DNA of 64,000 nucleotides from Shinella zoogloeoides (GTDB lineage: Bacteria > Pseudomonadota > Alphaproteobacteria > Rhizobiales > Rhizobiaceae). The notes beneath the pieces are model-generated. The model saw only the letters and a program-made list of their open reading frames with translations, did not search any database and was not told the origin of the DNA. The position numbers and the translations under genes were made by a program. This document shows positions 33,378 to 33,563 of the stretch, one piece after another; position 1 is the stretch's first letter, and each line of letters opens with the position of its first letter. The stretch is from NCBI RefSeq assembly GCF_033705735.1, contig NZ_CP131131.1, forward strand, positions 248,001 through 312,000, in the 5' to 3' direction.

Positions 33378-33563
33378 CCGATCCCATCCTTGCCTAAGCG
33401 GGCTTCGCAATGTCGAGCGGCCCTGGCGACTGTTCGGGTTCGATGGAACGGCGGATGGAGACCCGGGCTCTCCCGCGGGCTTGGTGTCCCAAAAGTGCTG
33501 CGGGATGCCATCCGCCACCGCAATGCCAAATACACCGGCTTTCGCGGATAAAGGGAAGTTACA
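33378..33563 (-). ncRNA. Candidate bridge RNA region of the IS110 element
   Basis: Non-coding DNA upstream of the transposase, where IS110-type (not IS1111-type) elements encode their bridge RNA. A 9-bp stem GGCGGATGG (33450-33458) / CCATCCGCC (33508-33516) encloses a 49-base loop with further GC-rich inverted segments. The octamer GCGACTGT (33426-33433) recurs at the outermost edge of the element (32429-32436), as expected for a donor-guide match. Transcript ends are unknown; this is inference. Confidence 0.45.

Follow-up and report, generated by a model that had tools for sequence, protein, structure and literature searches.

Sequence evidence for a bridge RNA in the left end of a REP-associated IS110-group element of Shinella zoogloeoides

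An IS110-group transposase gene in Shinella zoogloeoides is preceded by non-coding DNA with a candidate RNA stem, which raises the question of whether this DNA encodes a bridge RNA that directs the recombinase to a repeat. The locus lies in a 64-kb window (C2:248001-312000; the whole stretch of DNA analysed) of a 5.79-Mb genome in four contigs. Coordinates are given within the window, and all features of the element and its target are on the minus strand. Alignment of 11 genome copies placed the ends of the whole element, right core dinucleotide included, at 32428-33563. An ORF at 32445-33377 encodes the recombinase (transposase), a protein of 310 aa with both Pfam domains of IS110 transposases (DEDD RuvC-like and Transposase_20) and a score above the cut-off of the NCBIfam model "IS110 family RNA-guided transposase". 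Two recombinases of known structure are similar to it: ISCro4 (PDB 9t56; E 1.5e-37), the closest solved structure by protein sequence comparison, and IS621 (8wt6; E 2.8e-36). The initial annotation had attributed four acids and a candidate serine to the protein; these were found as D9, E53, D95, D98 and S234, all in stretches alignable with the ISCro4 and IS621 recombinases, consistent with the DEDD plus catalytic-serine architecture of the IS110 group. Non-coding DNA had been described as lying almost only 5′ of the gene. This was correct for the left side, where 186 bases (33378-33563) separate the start codon from the left end, but the right side measured 17 bases, not 16, when counted from the stop codon to the right end with the core dinucleotide (32428-32429) included. 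A long left end and a short right end are as in the IS110 group. The IS1111 group, whose long non-coding region lies downstream of the transposase gene, was ruled against by the 17 bases on that side.

The 11 copies in this genome are near-identical, and the DNA that flanks them differs. In all of them, alignment showed the left end TGTAACTT (right donor; 33556-33563 in the window copy) and the right end GACAGTCG-CT (left donor, 32430-32437, adjoining the core CT at 32428-32429). Ten copies split one REP-like palindrome, between CCGGCACCT(T) or CGGCCACCTT and CTCCCCGC. In the window, the left half of the split target occupies 33564-33590 and ends in the core TT (33564-33565), and the right half (CTCCCCGCAAGCGGGGAGAAGGG) occupies 32405-32427. 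A search with the REP-like pattern (≤2 mismatches) revealed 137 matches in this genome vs. 5 for a reversed control pattern; together with the ten split palindromes, this count bears out the earlier suggestion that a repeat serves as the target. Such repeats in rhizobia go by the name RIME. A second REP-like unit (32300-32345) adjoins the element in the opposite orientation and is intact, with a perfect target at 32311-32328, indicating that, of a pair of REPs, only one was split by the insertion.

The eleventh copy (L018) lies at a REP-like site within a coding gene, with flanks CCGGCAC-CT and CTCCCCGCAAGCGGGG. Gene pieces on either side of this copy (L018 352-1487; G000:C1 about 1659851-1660986) match a Gfo/Idh/MocA C-terminal domain, and they are in frame with a single CT. 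A homologue of the interrupted gene is intact in G018, a genome of the same species, and reads GGCACTTTCTCCCC at that place. G018 contained no copy of the element at E 1e-40, and the left flanks of all 11 sites were found in it. Nine of these sites were empty and collinear across the insertion point, seven of them exactly so; at L017 and L018 the G018 counterpart was one base longer. The one-base shortfall at L017 may reflect a strain difference or the loss of one base at insertion. At two sites (L013 and L016), the REP-like site was absent from G018.

The stem proposed in the initial annotation is present: GGCGGATGG (33450-33458) and CCATCCGCC (33508-33516) form 9 bp around a 49-nt loop. An RNAalifold consensus of 31 aligned related left ends contained 29 pairs, and removal of three isolated pairs left 26. 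In this structure the proposed stem accounts for 9 pairs of helix 1, a 13-pair helix of the target-binding loop (5′ strand, 33507-33519; 3′ strand, 33445-33459), and compensatory changes were observed in 9 helix-1 pairs. Across the 31 left ends, 97.3% of cells were paired, a percentage biased toward structure because the structure was derived from the same sequences. Two-sided changes, which are less biased, occurred in 11 pairs vs. 4.2 in shuffles (0 of 500 reached 11) and 3 to 6 in slid controls; the number of two-sided changed cells was 47 vs. 10.0 in shuffles (0 of 500 reached 47). Alignment of homologous copies, which had been proposed as a check, thus revealed both covariation and conserved structure. 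For the target loop the compensatory evidence is strong; variation in the donor loop, the most conserved part of the RNA, is slight among the 31 left ends.

Single-sequence folding of the region was not better than that of shuffles (z -0.60; 54 of 200 shuffles folded at least equally well), a result that would suit a stem formed by a chance palindrome in GC-rich DNA. However, chance would not be expected to give compensatory changes in 11 pairs when shuffles and slid controls gave so few, and the left-end alignment shows variable guides flanked by invariant segments. The guide permutation tests described below also contradict a chance origin, whose probability we regard as negligible. These results point to a conserved RNA with target-binding and donor-binding internal loops. 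The part covered by our covariance model, R1, comprises both loops and extends over 33382-33522; its score of 149.4 bits is not independent, as the window sequence was among the 31 used to build R1. A hairpin before the target loop (5′ stem-loop) was seen in the single-sequence fold only, and none was present in the consensus of 31. No fitting family was found in Rfam, in which three weak matches to microRNA and snoRNA families were far under the gathering scores. A second R1 match in the window (44388-44501; 18.8 bits) lies inside a same-strand 206-aa ORF and lacks part of the model, and was taken as chance.

The target loop was compared with the DNA on both sides of the insertions. We collected 47 combinations distinct in RNA, 10 left bases and 8 right bases; the 11 copies in this genome make up four of them. 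The right target guide (RTG; 33468-33474) is 7 nt long, has a fixed site 3′ of the inner stem, and reads GGGAGAG, the reverse complement of CT-CTCCC. In 40 of 44 distinct element/flank combinations, RTG agreed at 7/7 positions with the reverse complement of CT and the five right-flank bases after it; three of the others showed 6/7, and one (L115) was out of register. Examples of RTG and target are GTTTGAG/CTCAAAC (L070), ACCTCAG/CTGAGGT (L104), and GGAGAAG/CTTCTCC (L107). The strand holding the left target guide (LTG), GCAGCACTTTT, lies at 33491-33501, and its target is GGCACCTT. The left flank is copied by the 5′ strand of the target loop, as CGCCCTCT in L070 and TAGCCTCT in L119; the copy in the window has the left flank GGCCACCTT, with which LTG GCACTTT agrees at 5/7 bases.

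Permutation tests were performed for both guides. For RTG, with right targets permuted and the five non-core bases scored, the observed score was 57 for 13 distinct pairs (mean of permutations 28.0, maximum 49), and 49 when one pair was kept per distinct RTG (11 pairs; mean 24.2, maximum 44). For LTG, it was 155 for 41 distinct pairs (mean 117.8, maximum 138), and 99 with one pair per distinct LTG strand (25 pairs; mean 69.4, maximum 86). None of 20,000 permutations reached the observed score in any of the four tests. The tests are independent of the collecting pattern, leave kinship among elements in place, and count L115 (for RTG) and L114 (for LTG), both out of register, as misses. These findings indicate that LTG and RTG match the left and right target across the core. 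A common target loop was also seen in L118, L153, L154, L102, and L103 (G396 and a Martelella plasmid record), with left flanks CTTCACCCT, CATCACCCT, GCAACACCT, and CGCCACCCT and a constant right target, CTCACT[CG]; the left guide thus appears to tolerate more mismatch than the right.

The same data bear on a rival view, in which the upstream region is no more than a 5′ leader or regulatory RNA for the transposase and the REP-like palindrome is recognised by the protein unaided. Palindromes of this kind have structure that a protein might read, and ISPpu9, an IS110 element of Pseudomonas putida, has been reported to be regulated by small RNAs and by its own 5′ leader (PMC8450116). However, the guide letters vary with the flank from one element to another, also at targets other than this palindrome (such as L070, L104, and L119), and a leader would have no reason to spell both the left and the right flank. 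We consider a mere leader very improbable.

The donor-binding loop contains the left donor guide (LDG), ACAGTCGC (33426-33433), a copy of the element's right end, and the right donor guide (RDG), TTAGGCAAG (33389-33397). The RDG scheme TT-(AG)-G-CAAG fits CTTGTAA, by eye, with two bases out, in the manner of the IS621 right donor guide. Each of the 47 RNAs contained ACAGTCGC once and also TT..[GA]CAAGG; the LDG match in this set is built in, since the left donor guide, with a fixed left-end motif, was part of the pattern used for collecting. For this element alone, the chance of an exact 8-base copy of its own end within 186 bases is about 0.003.

Held-out elements were examined with R1. Of 15 held-out loci found by protein, 14 (L030, L031, L032, L033, L045, L068, L082, L084, L093, L116, L117, L120, L121, and L122) showed a match directly upstream of the transposase, and L049 showed none there; L068, L093, L116, L117, L120, L121, and L122 had escaped the collecting pattern. 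R1 also detected a second, distant IS110 on L064. Twenty held-out RNAs had not been used in training, and 18 of these were scored for LDG, since L192 and L194 have no sequence at the right-end position. In 12 of the 18, a 6/6 copy of the RNA's own LDG lay close to the right end of the element; six versions occurred (ACAGTC, ACAGCC, ACAGTT, ACAGAT, ACGGTT, and ATGGTT); the chance of a 6/6 match anywhere in the 520 searched bases is about 0.12 each. In the other six (L190, L116, L082, L200, L204, and L084), the right end was not recognised, and L082 ends inside the transposase. In the 12 with a copy, and with the score taken as the best of four offsets, RTG matched the bases that come next at 7/7 in L117, L068, L120, L121, L045, and the second L064 element, at 6/7 in L122 and L031, 5/7 in L032, and 4/7 in L093, L033, and L030. 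The matches of LDG and RDG are consistent with recognition of the element's joined ends.

A shorter processed seekRNA (70-100 nt) with target guides, rather than a full donor-reading bridge RNA, might be the functional molecule. In IS1111 and a single IS110 element, the abundant form was reported to be a seekRNA of 70-100 nt (Siddiquee et al., PMC11187229). However, the high conservation of the donor loop in the present elements, and the covariation of the left donor guide with the element's right end in distant groups, make the shorter form unlikely and favour a bridge RNA that reads the donor.

Some features of individual loci were observed in the course of these comparisons. On L064 (about 406-2700), two distant IS110 elements, with identities to this transposase of about 74% and 36%, face each other; their right ends flank one short palindrome, TTCTCCCGCTTGCGGGAGAA, and RTG is GGAGAAG in both. 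The contig is titled Microbacteriaceae, yet the elements look rhizobial. Orphan RNAs were absent from this genome, in which R1 gave 11 matches for 11 transposases (150 of 3036 first-look candidates scored). In G007 and G012, R1 matches (4 and 8, respectively) outnumbered transposase matches at E 1e-40 (0 and 4); the surplus may come from additional IS110 elements of more distant kinship or from RNAs that lack a gene.

The two junctions differ in core dinucleotide. In the 44 combinations with both ends, the right core was CT in all, and the left core was CT in 33 and TT in 11; the combinations exclude L075, a degenerate copy whose left end is unreadable. In this genome, the left junction was TT in 9 of 11 copies and the right junction CT in 11 of 11, and the reverse arrangement was never found; the copies with CT cores are L017 and L018. 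The nine empty G018 sites have TT before CTCCCC or, at two of them, before TTCCCC or CTCTCC, indicating that the left junction keeps the target core and the right junction the donor core. Junctions of this kind in natural insertions are compatible with inheritance of the top-strand product. For IS621, CT was reported to be preferred and TT to support recombination, with strands cut in two staggered steps and later mismatch repair possible (PMC11208158). The rule of TT on the left and CT on the right may simply follow from this known reaction of staggered cuts and repair. In the portions of the IS621 papers available to us (PMC11208160 and PMC11208158), no statement on top-strand inheritance in natural insertions was found.

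The element could represent a natural case of bridge recombination between unlike cores (TT target, CT donor) with top-strand inheritance. The left guide spells TT, and the right guide, which spells CT, would then read the target TT through a G-T wobble. We hold this reading tentatively and lean against it, because of L075 and the CC right ends of L030, L032, and L033. The right end of L075 reads CAGTCG-CC-CTCCCC, vs. CT in other close relatives, and the distant IS110 elements L030, L032, and L033 have CC after the left donor at the right end, with CT at the left end in L032 and L033. L107 is inserted in a similar REP-like site, with CGGGCACCT on the left and CTTCTCC on the right; its RTG is GGAGAAG vs. 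GGGAGAG in this element, and its cut lies one base to the left. Judging from this pair, guide and cut position shift together.

A putative promoter is split between the ends of the element. TTGACA (32443-32448), which overlaps the stop codon, is the putative -35 and TAACTT (33556-33561) the putative -10, separated by a 17-nt spacer after joining of the ends. In 45 joined ends (right end, CT, and left end), TTGAC was present in 43, the 17-nt spacer in 45, and TAACTT in 42; the spacing could hardly vary under the collecting pattern, and the -10 is a weak hexamer. A promoter scan of the linear element revealed no such promoter, as expected if it is split between the ends. Excision of IS110 elements has been reported to rebuild a promoter for the RNA (PMC11208160).

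The left end of this IS110-group element very probably encodes a bridge RNA that specifies both the REP-like target and the element's joined ends. The first loop (LTG and RTG) would specify the REP-like palindrome at GGCACC-TT-CTCCC, and the second loop (LDG and RDG) the joined ends, GACAGTCG-CT-TGTAA. The recombinase would excise the element as a circle, the junction of which would complete the RNA promoter (TTGACA, 17 nt, TAACTT), and recombinase and RNA would next integrate the circle into another REP, directly following its core dinucleotide. The anatomy, the compensatory structure, the correspondence of guides with target and donor, and the insertion at one base position can be read directly from the DNA. 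By analogy with the IS621 papers, the circle, transcription, binding, and strand exchange would follow the course described for that element. The proposal of a bridge RNA upstream of the transposase has thus held up in the compensatory structure, the guide correspondences, the R1 matches at 14 of 15 held-out loci, and the 11 insertions at the predicted place, and most sequence-based features of membership in the IS110-group bridge RNA systems are present.

In comparison with IS621 of E. coli (PMC11208160, PMC11208158), the element shares the recombinase family, the location of the RNA in the left end, the order of target loop and donor loop, the four guides (LTG, RTG, LDG, and RDG) with the core within the pairing, a right donor guide with two bases out, the use of a REP as target, and a promoter, putative here, at the circle junction. 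In the right donor guide of IS621, pairing was reported to include a G-T pair and to leave two bases flipped out (PMC11208158). Unlike IS621, the present element has a recombinase of 310 aa, other guide letters, an RTG of 7 nt vs. 4 nt in the published account, a target core that is mostly TT, a rhizobial REP-like palindrome as target, and no conserved 5′ stem-loop that we could see. ISRm19 of Sinorhizobium meliloti, likened here by its description, is an IS110-family element with 4 of 4 copies in REP sequences; it and other REP-targeting IS110 elements were described in 2006 without an RNA (PMC1525189). Elements of Rhizobium etli IE4803 and IE4771 and of Shinella sp. PSBB067 are 76.6-78.0% identical in DNA over 99-100% of the query and have the same RNA plan, but differ in guide letters and sites; they are annotated as IS110 transposase or unannotated. 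The seekRNA systems (IS1111 group and ISEc21; PMC11187229) likewise have RNA-guided DEDD recombinases, with an upstream non-coding region in the IS110 type, whereas in the IS1111 type this region was described as downstream and the guide order as reversed. Our literature search, whose scope was outside ISfinder and most subscription papers, did not turn up any account of the element. Insertion of IS110 elements into REPs, with a Sinorhizobium element among them, has been on record since 2006 (PMC1525189), and guidance by an RNA encoded upstream since 2024 (PMC11208160, PMC11187229); the element is therefore a new example of a bridge RNA system and not a new type of system.

As a tool, the element would offer one more 310-aa recombinase with a 7-nt right guide. 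The bridge RNAs collected here, mostly from rhizobia and their relatives, form a set whose guides are readable against their targets from genomes alone. The mismatch between TT and CT cores, together with the shift at L107, makes the relation of guide register and core to the cut directly testable. If recombination between unlike cores is confirmed, natural insertions would preserve a record of inheritance limited to the top-strand version of the crossover tract, and one RNA would serve cuts at two distances from the left-target helix, immediately next to it or one base off (TT and CT sites). In this genome, one element occupies 11 places, and more than 100 REP-like sites remain.
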